DNA of 64,000 nucleotides from Nitrospira sp. (GTDB taxonomy: Bacteria; Nitrospirota; Nitrospiria; Nitrospirales; Nitrospiraceae): positions 1,819,501-1,883,500 of the forward strand of contig BQWY01000001.1 of NCBI GenBank assembly GCA_036984305.1, written 5' to 3'. The notes below the pieces were generated by a model that was given only the letters and a program-made list of their open reading frames with translations, did no database searches and was not told the DNA's origin. Position 1 is the first letter of the stretch. Every line of letters begins with the position of its first letter. Shown here one piece after another: positions 2,242 through 14,017 of this stretch. The position numbers and the translations under genes are program-made.

Positions 2242-2523
2242 ATGGAAACGGCCACGCAATCCCGAGCCCACGTGTCGACGCGCAAATCGCTCCGCGCCTT
2301 CAAGAAAACGCCTCAGTACCGAGCCATGCTCACCAGCGCGATCGAGCGCCGCGAGACCAGCGCGATGAGCGACCGGGAAAAGCGACGTGTGAGACTGGAT
2401 CGCATTACCGCCCGGCTGGAATTGGATGCGCTTGAGCGCGGTGAAAACCCGTCAGAGTTTCATGGCCTGCTCGCCCTCCTGGATCCGCTGCACGGCCTCC
2501 TCCCTGATGAGGTGTACGAATGA
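2242..2523 (+). CDS. Small phage-associated helical protein
   Basis: A 93-residue, strongly charged, mostly helical protein beginning at ATG 2242 behind a GAAAGGAG ribosome site. It has an Arg/Lys-rich first half (RKSLRAFKKTPQY, then EKRRVRLDRITARLELD) and an acidic end (LLPDEVYE). The stop overlaps the protease start by ATGA (2520-2523), so the two proteins are probably made in matched amounts. No conserved family is evident. A small coupled protein just before a prohead protease could be a capsid assembly accessory, but nothing in the sequence proves it. Confidence 0.55.
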   Translation: METATQSRAHVSTRKSLRAFKKTPQYRAMLTSAIERRETSAMSDREKRRVRLDRITARLELDALERGENPSEFHGLLALLDPLHGLLPDEVYE

Positions 2524-3098
2524 CACCGCGGGAAGTCCGGTTCACGACCTCGCCTGCGCTGTCGGCTGAGTTGGCGCCACGAGCCAAGGGCCGGACTACT
2601 ACCGGCCCCGTGCTGCACGGCTATGCCGCGGTGTTCAACACCTTGTCTACCAATTTGGGCGGCTTTTTCGAGCGCGTGCAGCGCGGGGCATTTGCCGAGT
2701 CCCTCAAGCGCGATGTACGCGCCCTCTTCAATCACAATTCTGCGTCTCTGCTCGGCCGCACCCGGAGCGGGTCGCTGAAGGTGTTTGAGGATCAGCATGG
2801 GCTCGCGTTCGAGTTGCGGTTGCCGGATACGCAGCTCGGACACGATATCCGTGAACTCGTTTCCCGCGGCGACGTGTCGCAAATGAGTTTCGGGTTTTCG
2901 GTCCCGGACGGCGGGGATACGTGGACGTACGAGGCCGGCCGGACCATTCGCGTGTTGCGAAAGGTGGAGTTGTGGGAAATCAGCCTGGTCGTGGACCCGG
3001 CCTATTCCAGCACGTCCGTCATGCTGCGCGAAATGATAGCGGGCCTCGCAGACATGCTTGCGGCGCGGCGGCTCCGGGTTGCTGACCTGCTGCGCTGA
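2520..3098 (+). CDS. HK97-family prohead protease (serine protease, peptidase U35)
   Basis: This maturation protease trims the capsid and scaffold during head assembly. The 192-residue length and block order fit the family: an N-terminal strand with LHGYAAVFNT (about residues 37-46), FxERVxRGAF (about 55-64), the histidine block ALFNHN (about residue 75), and the serine block SQMSFGF followed by WEISLVVDPAY near residue 157. His in FNHN and Ser in QMSFGF are the expected catalytic residues and both are present. It starts in an ATGA overlap with the previous gene. A major capsid gene should follow, but only a small zinc-ribbon ORF does. Confidence 0.88.
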   Translation: MTPREVRFTTSPALSAELAPRAKGRTTTGPVLHGYAAVFNTLSTNLGGFFERVQRGAFAESLKRDVRALFNHNSASLLGRTRSGSLKVFEDQHGLAFELRLPDTQLGHDIRELVSRGDVSQMSFGFSVPDGGDTWTYEAGRTIRVLRKVELWEISLVVDPAYSSTSVMLREMIAGLADMLAARRLRVADLLR

Positions 3099-5071: not shown

Positions 5072-5147
5072 TGGCGCGCCCGACAGGACTTGAACCTGTA
5101 ACCCCCAGATCCGTAGTCTGGTGCTCTATCCATTGAGCTACGGGCGC
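5072..5147 (-). tRNA. tRNA-Arg(ACG)
   Basis: On the minus strand the acceptor arms GCGCCCG and CGGGCGC pair fully. The D arm is GCTC/GAGC, the anticodon arm CCAGA/TCTGG encloses loop CTACGGA with anticodon ACG, and the T arm ACAGG/CCTGT encloses TTCAAGT. The discriminator is G and the 3' CCA is encoded (5072-5074 on the plus strand read TGG). Total length is 76 nt. The 3' end faces the phage-like region, the usual orientation for tRNA-site integration. Confidence 0.97.
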
Positions 5148-5239
5148 GCAGAAGCTGTTTCTTATACAGGGCCTGGGGAGAGAGGGTCAAGCCAGGGTGA
5201 TCGAACTTGTATGTGGTTGGATGGTAAACGGACGAGGAA

Positions 5240-5272
5240 GGGAGGAGCGTCGCAAACTCCGACGTTCCTCCC
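5240..5272. terminator. Strong hairpin between tRNA-Arg and BACON gene
   Basis: Positions 5240-5252 (GGGAGGAGCGTCG) pair with 5260-5272 (CGACGTTCCTCCC) in a 13-bp stem with one G-T wobble and a 7-nt loop. It begins 7 bp after the stop of the minus-strand BACON gene. No long T tract follows on either strand, so it is a probable but atypical terminator or mRNA 3' stabiliser. Confidence 0.55.
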
Positions 5273-5279
5273 TGCGGCA

Positions 5280-7121
5280 TTATCGAGTGGCTGTGGCCTG
5301 ATTGGAATATCCGCTGAGATTTCCGCTCGTATCCATTGCCCTAATGGCGAAGTAGTAGGTGAATCCCGTCGTCAGTCCGTTCACCGTGTACGACGTCACG
5401 TTACCCACGTCAACGTTCGTAGTGTAGTTGCCGCTTGAGGTCCCGTAATATACTCGGTATCCCTGCAGGTCGGATTCGTTATTCGCGTTCCATGTCAGCG
5501 TGACACTTGCCGTACCGCCCCCGCCCCCGCTTGAACTTCCCCCGATATTCATTGTGACGGGAATGATTTTCGGAGAACCGGTGGCTCCGGCGCCGCCGAT
5601 GGTGACAGTTGTCGTATAGGTTCCGTTGACGCCCCCAAAGATATGTGGGTACACGGTAATTTGGAGACTTGCGTTTCCCGTGCCACCGCCGAGGTCCTTC
5701 ACCAACCAATCCACAGGATCGTCGGCCGTCCAGGTGAGGGTCCCACCCCCCGTATTGGAGATATTCAAGTACTGCGACGCGGATGCCAATGATCCTGATG
5801 GAATGTTGAATGTCAAACTGGTTGGGGACACGCCAAGCACGGGGGTCGTGCTGCCGCCGCCAGTGCTGCCACCGCCAGTGCTACCGCCGCCGGTGCTACC
5901 ACCGCCGGTGCTGCCACCGCCGGTGCTGCCACCGCCGGTACTACCGCCGCCAGTGCTGCCACCGCCACTCGACGAGGAGCCAATGTTGAGTATTACGGGA
6001 ATCGTCTTGGGTGATCCTGATGCCCCCGATGCCGTGATCGTCACGCTCGTATTGTAGGTTCCTGCTGCGCCCCCAAACCAGTGAGGATAGACCGTTACCT
6101 GAAGGCTGCCATTCCCAGTTCCGCCATCCACGTTTTTGACCACCCAGTCCACCGGATCCGTGGCATTCCACACGAGTGTACCCCCGCCGGAGTTGGTGAT
6201 ATTGAGTGTCTGCGTGACAGGGTCCAACGACCCCACCGGCACCGTGATGTTCAAAGTGGTCGGACTGACAGTCAGAACTGGTGTGCCGCCGCCGCTCCCA
6301 CTCGAGGTGACCGTGAGTGTGACAGGGATCTGTTGAGGACTGTTGGAGGCATTACCCGAAACGGTCACCGCGCCCACATAGGTGCCAGCCGATAGGCCGG
6401 ACGTATTGGCAGTGACGTTGACCGTATCGGTTTCGGTAGTTGTTGAGCGCGACGACGCCGAGAGCACGAGCCACGACTCGCTGGAGGCCCAGGTGGTCGT
6501 GAGCGTTCCGCCTCCCGGGTTCGTCAGTGAGATCGTCTTCGCCGCAGGCACCGATCCTCCCTGGCTCCCTGTGAAGGTGAGAGATGTCGGAGTGATCGCG
6601 ATGCTCGGTGTGCTGCTGCCCCCTCCGCTGCTCCCGCCGCCGGTGCTTCCTCCCCCGGTACTCCCGCCGCCTGTACTACCCCCGCCTCCGCCGCCAGAAG
6701 TCAGATTGAGTGTGACCGTGGCGGAATACACGCCCGCCCCCTGCGAGCCCCACCACCAGAAGTTCACATTACCCGTATAGATACCCGCGGCCATTCCGGA
6801 TGGGTTGACCGACACTGTCAAGGATCCCGAGGATGAGACTTGTCCGTAAGACTGAGCCACTGTCAGCCACGGTCTGTCCGATTCGGCATTCCACTCGCTT
6901 GAACCTGTCAGCGGAGCATTGGATAGTGACAGGCTCTGGCTCGCGGGGGGGCCCGCGCCCGCTGTTGCGGTAAACGTGACTTGCGACGGCGAAACGGAGA
7001 ACGCGAACGCATTCGCTGCTAGCGCAACGATAGGCATGCCAAATACAAGCAGTCGCAATCCCCTGCGGAGTTGCCGCTCGAGGAGCCGCAAGACATTTGT
7101 GGAATGGTGGAATGTAAGCAC
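5280..7121 (-). CDS. Secreted four-BACON-domain protein with FN3 domain and Gly-Ser-Thr linkers
   Basis: A 613-residue exported protein. GTG 7121 is the start, with GGAG 7 nt upstream and the same start in the paralogue at 8884-10425. A signal peptide covers about residues 1-41 (basic RRGLR, hydrophobic core, ANAFA cleavage region). Four BACON-type Ig-like domains follow (about 42-140, 170-270, 280-378 and 426-525), each with the FTGSQGG/PAxQSLSLSN and WL signatures. A fibronectin type III domain lies at about 535-613 (LQGYRVYYGT, YFAIRAMD). Domains 1-2 and 3-4 are separated by GGGST linkers; the second holds eight perfect units. No catalytic motif is present, so adhesion or carbohydrate/matrix binding outside the cell is likely. 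Confidence 0.8.
   Translation of the reverse strand: MLTFHHSTNVLRLLERQLRRGLRLLVFGMPIVALAANAFAFSVSPSQVTFTATAGAGPPASQSLSLSNAPLTGSSEWNAESDRPWLTVAQSYGQVSSSGSLTVSVNPSGMAAGIYTGNVNFWWWGSQGAGVYSATVTLNLTSGGGGGGSTGGGSTGGGSTGGGSSGGGSSTPSIAITPTSLTFTGSQGGSVPAAKTISLTNPGGGTLTTTWASSESWLVLSASSRSTTTETDTVNVTANTSGLSAGTYVGAVTVSGNASNSPQQIPVTLTVTSSGSGGGTPVLTVSPTTLNITVPVGSLDPVTQTLNITNSGGGTLVWNATDPVDWVVKNVDGGTGNGSLQVTVYPHWFGGAAGTYNTSVTITASGASGSPKTIPVILNIGSSSSGGGSTGGGSTGGGSTGGGSTGGGSTGGGSTGGGSTGGGSTTPVLGVSPTSLTFNIPSGSLASASQYLNISNTGGGTLTWTADDPVDWLVKDLGGGTGNASLQITVYPHIFGGVNGTYTTTVTIGGAGATGSPKIIPVTMNIGGSSSGGGGGTASVTLTWNANNESDLQGYRVYYGTSSGNYTTNVDVGNVTSYTVNGLTTGFTYYFAIRAMDTSGNLSGYSNQATATR
5851..5970 (-). repeat. 15-bp tandem repeat, eight units, encoding (GGGST)8
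   Basis: Eight consecutive 15-bp units that read GCC-GCC-GGT-GCT-ACC on the plus strand with synonymous variation. They encode eight GGGST pentapeptides between BACON domains 3 and 4. A second shorter array (about 6627-6690) encodes four to five related units between domains 1 and 2. The unit differences are silent, so the peptide is under selection while the DNA is prone to slippage. Confidence 0.9.
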
Positions 7122-7469
7122 CGTGTCTCCAGGCGGTTGGTTTGTGATGGTGAATGTTGAAAGATTTCGACAAGGAGGTAAGGCCCAAGCAAGTCACATG
7201 CCAACACGAACAAGTGGAGTATCGAGACAAATGCGGAAATCTGGAGCGTTTTGACAGAGCAGTGTGAGAGTCAAATGGCGCGGGTGTAATTCTGTAGCTT
7301 TCGACCTTCATCGTCGGGCCGGCGACTACGTGTTTTGCCCAGATCACTATTGTGAAGAGACCAATGCAGCTGCGGTGAAGTCGGCGTTGCAGGTGTGCCG
7401 TGCATGAAATGCACGAGTGCTAGGGATTCGTGCGGGCGTGTTGTAGCATGAGACCTCTGAGAGGCACCC
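7122..7469. other. Divergent intergenic region, duplicated at 10426-10760
   Basis: About 350 bp between the divergent genes at 7121 (minus) and 7470 (plus). The first 100 bp on the minus strand encode an N-terminal-like stretch (ACDLL, LLVE, NRLET) also found before the paralogue but out of frame with the signal peptide here, so it is probably leader RNA. Its conservation between copies suggests promoter or leader function. I see no convincing gene and no clear terminator. Confidence 0.5.
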
Positions 7470-7742
7470 ATGCGCGACCTTCAAGCGGCGAGACATTTGG
7501 AATCGACATGGGAGAATAAGGCCGAACGGCCTGTCTGCTTCGACACACGCGTTGTTCTTTTTGGAGCATTGGGTCTTGTCGGATGCTGCGCGATCGGAAC
7601 ATGGTTGGTCTGGTACGCCGTGCATCTCGATCGCGCGGCAAGCTTGGAGGAAATACGGGGCGCATGTGCGCGCACGATGCCGGACTCGGCGGAACGATGT
7701 GTCGATACCGTCATCATTCAACGAGGCGGAGCTCGTCGCTAG
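7470..7742 (+). CDS. Small membrane-anchored hypothetical protein
   Basis: A 90-residue ORF starting at ATG 7470 with GAGAGG 7 nt upstream. A short polar N-terminus is followed by one hydrophobic segment (about residues 28-51, VVLFGALGLVG then GTWLVWYAV), then a helical tail with two cysteines (about residues 67 and 78) and a basic end. The tail could lie in the periplasm. It precedes the outer-membrane barrel gene by 62 bp on the same strand, so the two could be co-expressed. I recognise no family. The start region is within the duplicated segment, but no intact second copy survives in block B. Confidence 0.4.
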   Translation: MRDLQAARHLESTWENKAERPVCFDTRVVLFGALGLVGCCAIGTWLVWYAVHLDRAASLEEIRGACARTMPDSAERCVDTVIIQRGGARR

Positions 7743-7804
7743 CAGGTGATAGAACTCCCTAGGACGTTACCTTCCGAGGACCGTCTGTCGTATCCTTCTG
7801 TCTC

Positions 7805-8824
7805 ATGAAAGCGCCCGTTACGTACGTCGTGAGCGTGTGGTGCGCAGTGTGGTGGTGTAGCGTCCACACAGTATACGCGCAGGTATCGACCCCACCTCCT
7901 GCGCCGCGTTCGCCCGTTCAATTCGAGGCGGGTCTGGGAGGATGGATCTCATCGGGGCAGACGACGTGGAGCCATAACGCGTCTGGGGTGGACCCGACCG
8001 TGGGCAATCCTTCGTCGCGCTTGCAATACAAGGATGTGGGGGTCAACTTTATCGAGTTGAAGGGGCGGGTCAATCTGCTCAACCGGTTTTTCGTGCGCGG
8101 GACGTTCGGTTTCGCCGACATCGGCGGGGGACGTTTGACCGATGACGACTTCGTGAGTGGCCAGGGTGCTGCCTTCTATGGCACGGCCACCCCGGGAGCT
8201 CAACGTATCTCTCGCACCTTCAGTGACATCAAGGGCGATAACAGTTGGTACGGTGTGCTCGAAGCTGGCGGCCGTCTCGTCAATTTTCCCCACCATCGCG
8301 GGCATCTCGATGCGTTCATCGGATATCGGTACTATTTTCAGCGCCATGTGGCCACGGGTGTGGCGCAGGCGGAATGTACCTCGACCGCGTTTTGCGATCC
8401 AGTCGGGACGATCTCCCATGTGCGCGATGACGTCATTTCGAACGAGCAGCGATGGCAATCAGTCGAACTCGGGTTGGACGTGGAGTATCGACTGTTGCGC
8501 CGCCTCAGTGTCTACGGGAGCGGAGCCTTCCTGCCGGTGAACTGGTTGAACAACGAGGATGTCCACTATCTGCGTACCGACTTGCGGCAGGATCCGAGTT
8601 TTCGGATGAGCGGTTGGGGGATCGGCGCCAATCTGGAAGCAGGGGCCACCGTCGCAATTCTTTCCCAACTGTTCCTCGACGTCGGCTACCGCTTTTGGTG
8701 GAATCAGGTCCTAGACGGTCAGTGGGAGAATTTTCCGGTTGGAGGCGGCGGGGTCGAGGTCCCTTTGCGGGAGTTCCGTAGCACGCGACAAGGACTGACG
8801 CTCGCGCTGCGCTACCGGTTCTAG
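7805..8824 (+). CDS. Outer-membrane beta-barrel protein
   Basis: A 339-residue exported protein with a signal peptide ending near residue 26 (VYAQ). The mature part is a run of alternating amphipathic strands rich in Tyr, Trp and Phe (for example NFIELKGRVNL, FFVRGTFGFAD, FIGYRYYFQR, DVGYRFWWNQ). It ends in LALRYRF, with the terminal Phe expected for BamA-dependent barrels. A repeated GxRL/DIxxGDNSWYG pattern resembles omptin-like or OmpX-type barrels, but omptin catalytic residues cannot be assigned confidently. The C-terminal 65 residues recur in the pseudogene at 10780-11014. It lies between the two BACON paralogues, suggesting a cell-surface cluster. Confidence 0.75.
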   Translation: MKAPVTYVVSVWCAVWWCSVHTVYAQVSTPPPAPRSPVQFEAGLGGWISSGQTTWSHNASGVDPTVGNPSSRLQYKDVGVNFIELKGRVNLLNRFFVRGTFGFADIGGGRLTDDDFVSGQGAAFYGTATPGAQRISRTFSDIKGDNSWYGVLEAGGRLVNFPHHRGHLDAFIGYRYYFQRHVATGVAQAECTSTAFCDPVGTISHVRDDVISNEQRWQSVELGLDVEYRLLRRLSVYGSGAFLPVNWLNNEDVHYLRTDLRQDPSFRMSGWGIGANLEAGATVAILSQLFLDVGYRFWWNQVLDGQWENFPVGGGGVEVPLREFRSTRQGLTLALRYRF

Positions 8825-8883
8825 CTGGCGCCTCCGCTCCCTCATGATTGGTGGATGAGGCCGACCGTGAGGGGACGTGTTCA

Positions 8884-10425
8884 TTAAGGAGCGGTGTTCA
8901 CTTCGTTTGAGAAAACGCTGAGATTGCCGGTTGTATCCATCGCTTTGATCGCAAAGTAATAGGTCTGCCCGCTAGGCAGTCCAGTTACCGTATAGGAGGT
9001 CACGTTTCCTACGTCGATGTTCGTCGTATAATTTCGTGATGCGGTGCCGTAAAACACTTTGTATCCTTGAATATCCGGCTCGGGATTGGCATCCCAGGTC
9101 AGCAAGAAATTTTGGCTACCAGTACTACCCGTCGTAGTCGTGCCTGTCGAGGTATGAGCAATGACGGGATCGAAGCCTGTGCTATCGCAGTAATTCGTCC
9201 CATCCGTACCTCGATTGATGACAAAATCTAGCGCATCCCCCGACGTCACACTTGTTGTGATGTTGAATGGAATACCGGTCGTGCTGCCGTTTCCGACAAC
9301 TTGTTGCCATAGCACGCTACCCCTCTTGCGAATGAGTGCCGTGATGCCACCACCGCAACTCCCATCTCCATCTCTGACGCTACCGGATATTTGAACGGTG
9401 CCCGATGACGGCGCGACCCATTGTCTGATGGCGTCGGCACCGTTTCCGGGATGCCCCCCGTCACGCCAGAGAATGAGGTAAGCTTCAGCGCCCTGCCAGA
9501 GGTCCTCTTGGGCATCCCATGTCATTTCCCGGCCCAAGGAATCTTTGTAATACCATCCGCGCTGTCCCTGTACGCCGGAGAAATCCACCGAGGCACGATA
9601 GGTTGTGGCCGTTCCCGCCGGCGGCGGAGGAGGGGGTGGTGAGGGGGAGGTGAGAGTCAAGGTGACAGGGATCTGTTGAGGACTGTTGGAGGTATTGCCA
9701 GAAACAGTTACCGCACCGATATAGGTGCCTGCTGAGAGGCCGGAGGTGTTGGCTGTGATGTTGACTGTATCGGTTTCTGTGGTTGTTGAACGCGACGAGG
9801 CCGAAAGCACGAGCCATGACTCGCTGGAGGCCCATGTGGTCGTGAGCGTGCCACCTCCGGGGTTCGTCAGCGAGATCGTCTTTGCCGGTGGCACCGACCC
9901 TCCCTGACTGCCCGTGAAGGTCAGAGATGTCGGAGTGAGCGCCATGCTCGGCGTGCTGCCCCCTCCGGAACTGCCGCCCTGCGTACTACCGCCCGCCATG
10001 ACATTGAGCGTGATCATGGCGGAGTATACGCCTGCCCCTTCTGAACCCCACCACCAAAAGTTGACATTGCCCGTATAGATGCCCGCTGCCATCCCAGATG
10101 GATTGACCGACACCGTCAGTGACTTCGACCCTGAAGAGGAGACGTATCCGTACGACTGAGCCACGATCAGCCAGCCTGTGTTCGATTCAGCATTCCATTC
10201 GCTCGAACCCGTCAGCGGAGCATTGGATAGTGACAGGCTCTGGCTCGCGGGTGGCCCTGCGCCAACTGTTGCGGTAAACGTCAATTGCGATGGTGAAACG
10301 GAAAACGCGAAGGCATGCGTTGTCAATGCAATACTGGCCATGCCAAGGATAAGCGGCAACGAACACTTGCGTAGAGTCCATTCGAGGATCCGCTGGGAAT
10401 GTATGGAATGGTGGAATGTCAGCAC
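8884..10425 (-). CDS. Secreted BACON protein with a galactose-binding-like insert and FN3 domain
   Basis: Paralogue of the 5280-7121 gene. GTG 10425 is chosen because GGAG precedes it and it matches the start of the paralogue; an ATG at 10509 would add an untypical leader. The 513 residues comprise a signal peptide (ending near THAFA), two BACON domains, and a proline-rich linker (eight prolines in a row region). In place of BACON 3 and 4 there is an unrelated beta-rich block of about 150 residues (RGWYYKDSLG, WQGAEAYLILW, GSVRDGDGSCGGG), with jelly-roll character like carbohydrate-binding modules. A fibronectin type III domain (IQGYKVFYGT) ends the protein. Likely a surface or matrix binding protein. 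Confidence 0.78.
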   Translation of the reverse strand: MLTFHHSIHSQRILEWTLRKCSLPLILGMASIALTTHAFAFSVSPSQLTFTATVGAGPPASQSLSLSNAPLTGSSEWNAESNTGWLIVAQSYGYVSSSGSKSLTVSVNPSGMAAGIYTGNVNFWWWGSEGAGVYSAMITLNVMAGGSTQGGSSGGGSTPSMALTPTSLTFTGSQGGSVPPAKTISLTNPGGGTLTTTWASSESWLVLSASSRSTTTETDTVNITANTSGLSAGTYIGAVTVSGNTSNSPQQIPVTLTLTSPSPPPPPPPAGTATTYRASVDFSGVQGQRGWYYKDSLGREMTWDAQEDLWQGAEAYLILWRDGGHPGNGADAIRQWVAPSSGTVQISGSVRDGDGSCGGGITALIRKRGSVLWQQVVGNGSTTGIPFNITTSVTSGDALDFVINRGTDGTNYCDSTGFDPVIAHTSTGTTTTGSTGSQNFLLTWDANPEPDIQGYKVFYGTASRNYTTNIDVGNVTSYTVTGLPSGQTYYFAIKAMDTTGNLSVFSNEVNTAP

Positions 10426-10779
10426 CGTTGTCTCCAGCCGGTTGATGTGTGATGGTGATCTATGGAAGCTCACAACAAGGAGGAAAGACTCAAGCAAGTC
10501 ACATGCCAACGCAAGTACGCTGCGGAAGAGACAAAGGTGGAAAAACTAGAGCGTTCTAAAAGAGCATGCCATGAGGTGAGACGAGTAGGTGTAGTTGTGT
10601 ACCTTTCAACCTCCATCGTAGGAAGGGTGATTACGTGATCAAACCAATCAATGCAGATGCGGTGCAGGCGGCACAACAGACGCGCCATGCATGAAAGGCA
10701 AAAGGCGAGGAATCGGCCAGGCGTGTTGTATCATGAGATCTCCAAACAGCGGATGCAACGATCCAACCCCTGGCAATTC

Positions 10780-11014
10780 AGTGATCTCACATTGGACGTC
10801 GAGTATCGGGGCCTGCGCCAATTTGGAAGCAGGGGCCACCGTCGCAATTCTCTCCCAACTGTTCCTCGACGTCGGCTACCGCTTTTGGTGGAATCAGGTC
10901 CGAGACGGTCAGTGGGAAAATTTTCCGGTCGGAGGCGGCGGGGTCGAGGTCCCTTTGCGGGAGTTCTGTGGCACGCGGCAAGGACTGACGCTTGCGCGGC
11001 GCTACCGATCTTAG
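10780..11014 (+). pseudogene. Truncated duplicate of the outer-membrane barrel gene
   Basis: Positions from about 10819 to 11014 repeat the last 195 bp of the barrel gene with few changes (ANLEAGATVAILSQL to the final RYRS). Upstream, a short stretch (TTGGACGTCGAGTATCG) matches the barrel gene near 8475. The roughly 130 bp that separate these parts in the intact gene are deleted, and no signal peptide or proper start is present. The terminal Phe is changed to Ser. This is a decayed remnant of the second barrel copy and ends 5 bp before the stop of the convergent helicase-half gene. Confidence 0.85.
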
Positions 11015-11019
11015 GGCTG

Positions 11020-12075
11020 TTATCGCCGAGGGCCGATCGTCTCGTGCTCGTACTGCTGGAAGAGGCGCTTCGTTTCCGGGTGGAGCGGGGCGTGTCCACC
11101 GGGAGGGATGCCGACGGTTCGAAACAGCGGCGAGAGTTTCCCATTGGGATGCAAGTACCCGGCGCGGAGCGGCACGGTGCGTCGCGTGTGACGGATGAGA
11201 CGACACGGCGTGGGTCGAATTTGCGTCAACCAGTCGGCGATGTCCTGCGGGTTGCCGATCGAGGCCGATAGCAGCAAGAGTTTGGCCTGCCCTGGGCAGA
11301 AGATAATGGTTTCCTCCCAAACCACCCCCCGTTCCGGATCCGCCAGATATTGGGATTCGTCCAAAATGACGAGCCCCAACGTATCGAGTCTGAGGTCGAT
11401 CTCGCCGCCCGCCGCGTCGTAGAGTAAGTTCCGAAGGATTTCGGTCGTCATGATCAGGAGCGGAGCCTGAGTATTGTCGCGTCGATCCCCCGTCAGAATG
11501 CCTACTTGGCCGGACCCAAATATCTTGGAGAACTCGGTGAATTTAGTATTTGAGAGTGCCTTCAGGGGCGACGTATAGATCACCGTACGATTGCTGTCGA
11601 TGGCGCGTCGTGCGGCTTCGACCGCGACGTAGGTCTTGCCGCTTCCGGTCGGCACACTCACGATCACGTCGGTGTGGGCCAGTTGCTCAAGAGCGTCCTG
11701 TTGCCAGGGGTCCGGGACGAACGGAGTAGGAGGCGGAACACCGATGCCGTCCAGAAAGTCTCCGAGGCCAGCTGCAGGCTCGCGTGCTTCCTGAGTTGCC
11801 GGCCGAGGTGGAAGATCCGGTCGTGTTCGAGGGGGCGGGACGGTGGAGGAAGGCGGCACCGGTTTCGCGTCAGTTCGGCGGCGGGCACGGTCTTCGATCA
11901 AGGTATGAAGATCGGCCACGAGCGCATCCCGGTGTTCGGGTGAGGCTCGAAGCAACGCCTCAATCATACGGCGCTTTCCAAGGCGGAAATGCCGGTGGAC
12001 CCGTCCATGAGCCAGGCGATGGAGCAGGCCGAGCGGCTGCTGAGCGAGCAATCGTTCAAGTTCGTCGGTAGTCAT
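11020..12075 (-). CDS. RecA1 half of a split Ski2-like DExH helicase
   Basis: The 351 residues hold only the first helicase domain. A helical N-terminus and proline-rich linker (about residues 70-95) are followed by a Q-motif region (WQQDALEQL about 124-132), motif I PTGSGKT (142-148), motif Ia TSPLKALSN, motif II DESQ (239-242) and motif III SAS (270-272). It ends shortly after a strand leading towards domain 2. Motifs IV-VI are absent; they lie in the ORF at 12158-14017, which is transcribed before this one, so the order of halves is reversed from a normal helicase. AAAGAG precedes ATG 12075, and an 82-bp gap separates the two genes. Confidence 0.85.
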   Translation of the reverse strand: MTTDELERLLAQQPLGLLHRLAHGRVHRHFRLGKRRMIEALLRASPEHRDALVADLHTLIEDRARRRTDAKPVPPSSTVPPPRTRPDLPPRPATQEAREPAAGLGDFLDGIGVPPPTPFVPDPWQQDALEQLAHTDVIVSVPTGSGKTYVAVEAARRAIDSNRTVIYTSPLKALSNTKFTEFSKIFGSGQVGILTGDRRDNTQAPLLIMTTEILRNLLYDAAGGEIDLRLDTLGLVILDESQYLADPERGVVWEETIIFCPGQAKLLLLSASIGNPQDIADWLTQIRPTPCRLIRHTRRTVPLRAGYLHPNGKLSPLFRTVGIPPGGHAPLHPETKRLFQQYEHETIGPRR

Positions 12076-12157: not shown

Positions 12158-14017
12158 TCACGGGAGCTCCTCCAGGACGCCGCGTCGTAAGGAGGACATC
12201 GCCTTCTCGGCCGTTTCGGCAAGGCTCGGGTGCGACTGCCGAAGACTCTCTACCTGCGAGAGATACTCCAGAGTGCGTGCCAGCAATCGGTACATATCCC
12301 CCTCCGCCATGGTTGTGGTCCGGCAGAGACCGATCCATGTGAGCGTCGGGTCGCCCACCCACCGTTCCGTGAGAGCCGCGACCTCTGTACGCAACAGCGG
12401 AGGTTCCTCGTGTGCAGCGAGTTCGTGTGCCATGCGTCGGACCTGGGCGAGCACGGTCATCAGTCCCGGGCTGGCTCGCGGAAACGCCCCGGGACGATCG
12501 TCATCGATGGCGATGCTGGCCAGCACGCCGGCCAGCAGGGCAGGGTCGATACCCGTAAACGCCTCTGCGCGGATCAGTTCGGTAATGAGCAGTGAATGGT
12601 CGATCCGGATGAGCCTGGCCCATTCTCCGTCGGCGGTCAGTTGCGATGCCGGTGTGAGATATCCCAGCTGCTGCAGCACCTCGACCTTGTCCTGGAACCG
12701 ATGCCAGAGGCTCGTGCGCATGGCTTGGATCGCCCTCGTGTGGCGGGCGATTTCCTCGCGCAGTTTGTGCGCGGCGATGAAATCCTTCTGGCATGCCGAG
12801 CGGGACGGGCAGGTAGGACATGGGAATTCGTCGAGTGTTTGCGCGATCAGGGGTTCCGGCATCGCGCCCTCAGACTGAATCAACAGCGGCAGGACGGGAA
12901 TGCGCGAGGGCAAGGCCTGCAAACCCTCCACAGCGTTGCGAAGCGAATCCGTGGTGGCCCAGGGATAGGCGCGCGATTCGGCGATCTCGAACGTATGGTC
13001 GAATAATTCGGTGATCGATACGGCCTGGGATTCCGTGATCGCGCCGTCGCTGCGTACAAGGGTCAGCATGGGGGTGCGCTGTCCACGGCTTCGATATTGG
13101 CGGAGCACGGCGGCCCGAATTTTCCCCAACCCGACGACTCGTCCCGGCGTGAGGAACTGGAGTCGGGCGGACAGTTCGGGCGAGTCCACCCGCGCCGAGG
13201 CCGACCGGAGCGGTCGTCGGCGGCGGGCAATATCGAACGAGTGCCACTGCGTAATCCAATCGGTGCAGACGCGTGGACCGTACGGTTGCATGCGTTCTTC
13301 CGCCACATCAAGTTTTTGTTGGAGCCGCTCCGCGCGCTGATTCAATTGAAACTGCGCGAAGCTCTTGGCCAGTATCGGTTGGATGTGATCGAAGGGATGA
13401 GCTTTGAGGAGGTTGAGCACCATCGGATACGTGATGACGAACTGACTGTCGATCGGTTCCGGATGCCCGGTCAGCCCTTTGGCCAGGTGTTCGAGATCGA
13501 TGTATGGAGACGGGGTAATGAGCGCGAAGCCGACGAGATCCTTACCCCGACGTCCCGCCCGCCCGGACAATTGCTGGATTTCGCTGACCGTCAAATCGGT
13601 GAAATCGCGGGTCTTTCGGACGCTCGACTGTGTGATCACCACGGTACGCGCCGGAAAATCGACTCCGGCTGCAAGCGTCGTCGTCGCAAAGACCGCATCG
13701 AGGCAACCGTGCCGCATCAGTTCTTCGACAGCGATCTTCCACGACGGCAAGTGACCCGCATGGTGGGCGGCGACGCCAGTCTGCAGGACGACCTCCCGCA
13801 GCGGATGTTCGGCAATGCTGGGAAACTCGTTCGTCACCTGGTCCAGGACACGGGCGATCTGATCTTGTCGGGCCGGTGGGAGTGGGGCGGGCCCGTACGC
13901 GAGTTCTTGCATGGCTTCGTCGCATGCACGCCGGGAAGTTAAAAACACGATCGCGGGGGTCAGGTGCTTCTGACGAAGCGCAGCCAGGAGATCAACCGGG
14001 TGAATCGACGGGGCCAT
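12158..14017 (-). CDS. RecA2 plus C-terminal half of a split Ski2-like helicase
   Basis: The 619 residues start inside the second helicase domain: motif IV-like IVFLTSRRACDE (about 23-34), HHAG (85-88), motif V ATTTLAAGVDFPA (111-123) and motif VI QLSGRAGRRG (149-158). Winged-helix/ratchet and helical-bundle regions follow, as in Ski2/Mtr4-like bacterial helicases, with a cysteine cluster CPTCPSRSAC near residue 389. There is no Walker A or DExH motif, so it cannot hydrolyse ATP alone. It should need the RecA1 product encoded just downstream. Its start overlaps the end of glgC by 26 bp, indicating translational coupling. A role in RNA or DNA remodelling is inferred from the family only. Confidence 0.85.
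   Translation of the reverse strand: MAPSIHPVDLLAALRQKHLTPAIVFLTSRRACDEAMQELAYGPAPLPPARQDQIARVLDQVTNEFPSIAEHPLREVVLQTGVAAHHAGHLPSWKIAVEELMRHGCLDAVFATTTLAAGVDFPARTVVITQSSVRKTRDFTDLTVSEIQQLSGRAGRRGKDLVGFALITPSPYIDLEHLAKGLTGHPEPIDSQFVITYPMVLNLLKAHPFDHIQPILAKSFAQFQLNQRAERLQQKLDVAEERMQPYGPRVCTDWITQWHSFDIARRRRPLRSASARVDSPELSARLQFLTPGRVVGLGKIRAAVLRQYRSRGQRTPMLTLVRSDGAITESQAVSITELFDHTFEIAESRAYPWATTDSLRNAVEGLQALPSRIPVLPLLIQSEGAMPEPLIAQTLDEFPCPTCPSRSACQKDFIAAHKLREEIARHTRAIQAMRTSLWHRFQDKVEVLQQLGYLTPASQLTADGEWARLIRIDHSLLITELIRAEAFTGIDPALLAGVLASIAIDDDRPGAFPRASPGLMTVLAQVRRMAHELAAHEEPPLLRTEVAALTERWVGDPTLTWIGLCRTTTMAEGDMYRLLARTLEYLSQVESLRQSHPSLAETAEKAMSSLRRGVLEELP

Follow-up and report, generated by a model that had tools for sequence, protein, structure and literature searches.

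In the window analyzed in this study, a 64,000-nucleotide stretch of the genome of a Nitrospira sp., positions 5280–11014 contained a divergent gene pair in two copies, each with a gene for a BACON/FN3 protein on the minus strand and a gene for an outer-membrane-barrel-like protein on the plus strand. We put the probability at roughly 60% that this arrangement arose through an old duplication, replacement of the tail of the BACON protein in the second copy (copy B), decay of the second barrel gene and a later re-homogenization of the barrel end. That the two neighboring units are a lineage-specific tandem duplication is well supported, because one barrel was found in 75 of the 76 barrel loci and two were found in the window only.

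Organization of the duplicated locus

The locus is bounded on the left by a tRNA-Arg(acg) gene (5072–5147, minus strand), which was predicted by ARAGORN, and on the right by helN (11020–12075, minus strand), which encodes the DEAD half of a Ski2-like helicase that is split into two genes. In copy A, BACON_A (5280–7121, minus strand) is 613 amino acid residues long and consists of a signal-peptide-like start, BACON1 (6699–7001), BACON2 (6306–6611), BACON3, BACON4 and an FN3 domain identified by Pfam (5283–5513). BACON3, BACON4 and the Gly/Ser/Thr linker between them, which contains repeats with a 15-bp period, occupy approximately 5538–6284 and are without counterpart in copy B. The non-coding 5' flank of BACON_A (7122–7457) is followed by an ORF of 90 residues with a hydrophobic stretch (7470–7742, plus strand), which lies just upstream of the complete barrel A (7805–8824, plus strand). 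This small ORF is missing from copy B, and tblastn matched it in 45 of the 88 loci searched.

The chimeric BACON_B (8884–10425, minus strand) consists of a signal-peptide-like start, BACON1 (9997–10305), BACON2 (9649–9954), a jelly-roll-like block of about 158 residues (JR; 9142–9615) and FN3 (8887–9117). Its ORF as listed spans 8884–10509 and encodes 541 residues from a TTG; the start common with copy A, a GTG near 10425, is the probable one. The 5' flank of copy B (10426–10742) is followed by a diverged inner fragment of barrel B (about 10743–10814, plus strand) and by a 3' fragment (10815–11014, plus strand), which ends just before the stop of helN.

Pfam matches of the intact genes exceeded their gathering cut-offs. 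BACON_2 (PF19190, cut-off 25) scored 63.8 bits over four stretches of BACON_A and 41.1 bits over two stretches of BACON_B, fn3 (PF00041, cut-off 25) scored 34.4 and 31.4 bits, respectively, and Pom (PF17251, cut-off 22.4) scored 26.9 bits with barrel A. The remnant ORF of barrel B matched none of the Pfam families.

Homology between the two copies

Comparison of the window halves by BLASTN revealed that 6304–7457 and 9647–10742 were 75% identical over 1165 columns, a stretch that spans the signal-peptide region and continues into about 330 bp of the non-coding 5' flank. The identities per 100 columns ranged from about 71 to 90% in the main common region and from about 76 to 86% in the non-coding 5' flank, which also contained many indels. 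In addition, the barrel 3' ends (8625–8817 and 10815–11007) were 94.8% identical and the FN3 regions (5312–5499 and 8916–9103) were 70.7% identical. The amino acid identities between the copies were 88–89% for BACON1 and 93% for BACON2. A false duplication introduced by assembly was ruled out, as the copies differ by about 25%.

Homology of the flanking non-coding parts was the point on which the tandem duplication proposed in the initial annotation was to stand or fall. The alignment of the 5' flanks, the homologous barrel ends and the single unit of the nearest sampled relative upheld that proposal, the two units being adjacent and homologous with non-coding sequence included. The same annotation had assigned a common signal peptide, BACON1–2, FN3 and both flanks to the two genes. 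This held for the signal-peptide region, BACON1–2, the barrel end and the flank on the 5' side, but BLASTN found no homology between the sequences 3' of the two BACON genes (5148–5280 and 8825–8884), and the FN3 domains are homologous but of another age. As had been noticed before, the middles are unlike, with BACON3-linker-BACON4 in copy A and one block, JR, in copy B. A short-word search of 8818–8900 returned matches of 10–12 bases only. Moreover, a search against Rfam at E values up to 1 found no riboswitch or other RNA element in the shared 5' flank; only the tRNA and, below the threshold, a match on its antisense strand were returned.

The locus in related bacteria

The 79 stretches examined comprised 78 loci and the window, and 76 of them hold a barrel; the barrel stretches were taken from part of the 108 genomes of the family in which the barrel was matched at E ≤ 1e-60. 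Among these 76, window included, helN was on the right in 70, tRNA-Arg was on the left in 44 and a BACON/JR/FN3 ORF was in the slot in 40, counts that are not frequencies since six loci were chosen as JR matches. The nearest sampled relative (G012, stretch L070) possesses tRNA-Arg, one gene with four BACON domains and FN3 on the minus strand, one barrel gene on the plus strand, and helN, helC and glgC on the minus strand. Its BACON protein aligned with that of copy A over residues 14–613. Copies A and B were each other's closest relatives, with identities of 88% for BACON1 and 93% for BACON2 versus 53–66% to L070. This single outgroup for the order of events comes from another genus, the 61 listed genomes holding none of the same genus. 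Given the single copy in L070 and the two barrels found in the window alone, the duplication belongs to the lineage of the window, and the older architecture is that of copy A. A unit of BACON/FN3 gene, small ORF and barrel would thus have been duplicated in tandem after the split from the nearest sampled genus, giving copies A and B, of which copy A would have retained the ancestral architecture of four BACON domains and FN3.

Slot content varies between species and genera. In L177, two BACON-FN3 ORFs that are 65% identical lie beside the barrel, probably an independent second tandem duplication in another genome. In L151, L154 and L176, the slot genes are split into two ORFs and are possibly decaying or frameshifted. 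The alternative contents of this family-wide variable slot can be counted across genomes. As a tentative idea, the stretch from tRNA-Arg to the small ORF, barrel and split helicase might be a family-wide exchange site for secreted sugar-binding or sugar-cleaving modules. BACON arrays of varied length, apiosidase-like/LamG/JR enzymes or nothing would be alleles that recombine via the conserved flanks, and the window would have two allele types merged in one gene beside an intact copy.

Divergence classes and age of the duplication

Ks values were calculated by the Nei-Gojobori method. Between the copies, Ks was 0.757 for BACON1, 0.567 for BACON2 and 0.157 for the last 64 codons of the barrel ends, and the synonymous divergence of FN3 was saturated (pS of 0.824, bootstrap range of 0.66–1.02). 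As pS of FN3 may be inflated by codons with multiple changes, the test was repeated on codons that keep the same residue. Those differing between A and B were 32 of 83 in BACON1, 34 of 93 in BACON2, 27 of 47 in FN3 and 7 of 57 in the barrel end; the corresponding values between A and L070, which are between genera, were 32 of 55, 41 of 65, 33 of 50 and 28 of 45. FN3 differed from BACON1 and BACON2 combined (66/176; p = 0.019) and did not differ from the FN3 value between genera (p = 0.41). The barrel end also differed from BACON1 and BACON2 combined (p = 0.00026). Slow change of the barrel end by constraint was ruled out by its 28 of 45 differing codons between A and L070. Finally, the synonymous divergence of BACON1, BACON2 and the signal-peptide region was similar.

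These divergence classes, as estimated from the aligned codons, argue against one recent event of uniform age. The initial annotation had called the duplication recent; low synonymous divergence along the whole unit was not found, and this part of the claim had to be given up in view of the Ks values of BACON1–2 and an FN3 as diverged as between genera. The duplication is older and patchier than it appeared at first, and the view of one recent event has to be revised. A single recent tandem duplication followed by fast, selection-driven divergence would account for barrel ends that are 95% identical. It is very improbable, however, as Ks of 0.57–0.76 with Ka/Ks below 0.1 in BACON1–2 indicates age and constraint rather than youth and positive selection, and the non-coding flank has diverged with many indels as well.

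The nested divergence, in which FN3 exceeds BACON1–2 and BACON1–2 exceeds the barrel end, also fits a duplication near the genus split with repeated conversion. The divergence of FN3 would then give the true age, BACON1–2 and the 5' flank would have been homogenized later and the barrel end last, and JR would have replaced BACON3–4 between conserved ends. FN3-B is nearest to FN3-A by identity and the FN3 tree did not reject their pairing (p-AU of 0.49), as this reading expects. However, BACON1, BACON2, the signal-peptide region and the flank are alike in divergence, so one early conversion of more than 1.1 kb that ended at the BACON2 border would be needed, and FN3-B carries the SRNY residues of JR-type proteins. 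Repeated conversion is therefore a possible but rather doubtful explanation.

The barrel B remnant

Compared with barrel A, barrel B lacks the regions corresponding to about 7457–8455 and 8490–8620, and the small ORF is also gone. The inner and 3' fragments are in different frames. With two deletions and a frame break, barrel B was correctly described before as a deletion pseudogene; it and its small ORF would have decayed through deletion. The inner fragment is nearest to barrel A (11 of 16 residues), and there is a sharp step from this diverged piece to a 3' stretch that is 92–95% identical to barrel A.

The barrel end is thus a sharp-edged stretch of low Ks inside a more diverged alignment, as is typical of a gene conversion tract, and a second small duplication fits too. 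On these alignments, the final ~200 bp of the two barrel genes are best read as a later gene conversion from barrel A or as a second small duplication, two events that the data do not separate. In the preferred account of an old duplication with tail replacement, barrel B would have been re-homogenized or re-copied here by either event. The tract is short (193 bp), and the A-B identities of 71–90% are at the low edge of the range in which interlocus conversion is said to be common in the accessible part of PMC3924818.

JR, FN3 and the probable exchange of the tail

JR of copy B is about 60% identical to JR domains in relatives (56–62% to the nearest ones). By sequence, it had no match of note in Pfam, NCBIfam or PDB. 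A JR profile of ten rows found no sequence match in PDB up to an E value of 5, and JR could not be placed by curated families as a CBM6/CBM35-like module. The predicted structure is all-beta save one helix, with a low confidence (pLDDT of 54.4), and CBM6/CBM35 chains were among the best Foldseek matches of this model (best E value of 1e-3, TM below 0.5). The model thus gives only a hint that JR may be a CBM6/CBM35-like jelly-roll module. JR is an uncurated domain family that could be defined.

The initial annotation had suggested a search for the jelly-roll block in other BACON proteins of relatives. With a three-row profile, JR was detected in 15 of the 395 genomes of the phylum, a count that takes in the genome of the window. 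In six other genomes (G112, G140, G093, G157, G129, and G158), it is in the slot ORF adjoining the barrel, and elsewhere, such as in G089 and G170, it is in ORFs away from the barrel. The window row of the slot table covers the ORF left of the first barrel only, so copy B lies outside its JR list. A single-sequence search, with matches in 2 of 61 relatives, had suggested that JR was a lone foreign acquisition, which was dropped after the profile search. No match was found in plasmids and no relative in viral contigs. Among phages, there was one partial match, in Pseudomonas phage DVM-2008 (30.6% identity over residues 55–152). In the JR tree, copy B grouped with the JR pair of G089 (support of 86/88, not starred).

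FN3 comes after JR in most JR-bearing slot ORFs of relatives. In the two slot ORFs that were scanned (L122 and L126), Pfam identified an apiosidase-like/DUF6298 region, LamG and fn3, and the profile identified JR; L130, which is away from the slot, has the same make-up. The slot ORFs of L122–L127 and the ORF of L130 encode large apiosidase-like/DUF6298-LamG-JR-FN3 proteins, possibly glycan-degrading enzymes (Pfam results being from L122, L126, and L130 only).

FN3-B carries SRNY, like six of the eight FN3s shown from JR-bearing proteins; those of A, L070 and L085 carry SGNY or PGNY. By identity, however, FN3-A is the nearest to FN3-B (64% over 77 columns), and both share YTTN-DVGNVTSYTV. The FN3 tree (77 columns) rejected neither the A+B pair nor A+L070+L085 (p-AU of 0.23). 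Replacement of the tail at the BACON2 end is favored, and its main rival is an FN3 that is older and was co-duplicated. FN3-B may indeed have been duplicated with the rest long ago and not imported, a view consistent with the A+B pairing in the tree, the identity to FN3-A and a codon test of FN3 versus BACON that reached p = 0.019 only. The swapped unit is nevertheless probably the whole tail of JR and FN3, a point on which the FN3 tree alone is not decisive. The modular exchange in the middle of the gene proposed initially is therefore supported as an exchange, but its unit was probably not the middle alone. Recombination past the BACON2 end of copy B would have swapped the remainder for a JR-FN3 tail of the type that other family proteins possess, several of them in the same slot.

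The presence of JR proteins in this very slot in six other genomes also suits a merodiploid, in which recombination placed a foreign slot allele, with its own barrel and a tail of JR-FN3, next to the resident pair, and the 5' part of this allele was then converted by A. The conserved slot flanks of tRNA-Arg, barrel and helN could have acted as homology arms. However, the diverged inner fragment of barrel B is nearest to barrel A of its own genome, and in the JR slot proteins of relatives that were scanned, the N-terminal half is enzyme-like instead of BACON. Moreover, the G+C contents of JR (0.564) and FN3-B (0.480) are tied to no donor. Such an import is improbable.

Neighboring features

The Ski2/Mtr4-like helicase on the right is split into 11020–12075 and 12158–14017 (both on the minus strand), and the gene for the C-terminal half (Helicase_C, DSHCT) precedes that for the N-terminal DEAD half. 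This reversed order was found in all 72 loci that hold both halves (88 searched). In L182 (G028), both halves are in one open frame of 981 residues, also in the reversed order, and the predicted protein is a natural circular permutation. Of 148 phylum genomes, 36 contained DSHCT; the frames, where shown, were 619–647 residues long. A search of the literature, in sources accessible in part, found no circularly permuted Ski2 helicase. The reversed split helicase is more striking than the BACON duplication.

On the left, a 30-base stretch of the tRNA-Arg end has two exact occurrences 10.7 kb apart (G000:C1:1813832 and 1824573). Between these repeats are phage genes, including those for a terminase small subunit (421–885) and a prohead protease (2520–3098). 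The region from left of the window to 5073 probably represents a phage-like element that integrated at the tRNA.

Functional implications and comparison with known systems

Ka/Ks between the copies was about 0.085 for BACON1 and about 0.07 for BACON2, and both BACON genes thus look functional. Given this strong purifying selection on BACON1–2, both proteins are probably still made and exported. By analogy, they may be cell-surface or secreted carbohydrate-binding proteins whose tail would decide the ligand, because BACON is described as a spacer or binding domain in the accessible part of PMC11216935 and the slot proteins of relatives resemble glycan-acting enzymes.

Tandem duplication, domain shuffling and gene conversion of bacterial surface proteins are well-known processes. 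Duplication, tail exchange and decay at a variable genome spot make the locus instructive, but the case is an ordinary one. With its fixed flanks, outgroups and three separable ages, it provides a well-anchored example of a putatively exported protein rebuilt from modules. Our literature search found no paper on the BACON domain with Nitrospira.

Similar to interlocus gene conversion between paralogs as described in the accessible part of PMC3924818, the barrel end is a short stretch of increased identity in paralogs that are otherwise diverged. Different from that system, however, it pairs an intact gene with a remnant, and its direction and mechanism are only putative. Similar to CBM6/CBM35 jelly-roll modules, the low-confidence JR model (pLDDT of 54) is nearly all-beta and CBM6/CBM35 chains are listed for it by Foldseek, but JR lacks a sequence match of note in Pfam, NCBIfam and PDB.

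In crAss-like phages, BACON tandem repeats evolve as domains are duplicated and single domains are transferred horizontally, according to the accessible part of PMC6949934. Similar to known BACON/BACON_2 arrays (PF13004, PF19190), both window proteins carry tandem domains that score as BACON_2. They differ in being bacterial and, presumably, exported, in having a C-terminal FN3 and in being encoded beside an outer-membrane-barrel-like gene. Finally, BACON is presented in the accessible part of PMC11216935 as an N-terminal spacer or binding domain ahead of varying C-terminal carbohydrate-active domains. Similar to those proteins, the window proteins combine a constant N-terminal BACON part with exchangeable C-terminal parts; different from them, they possess several BACON domains and the exchanged tail is JR-FN3.
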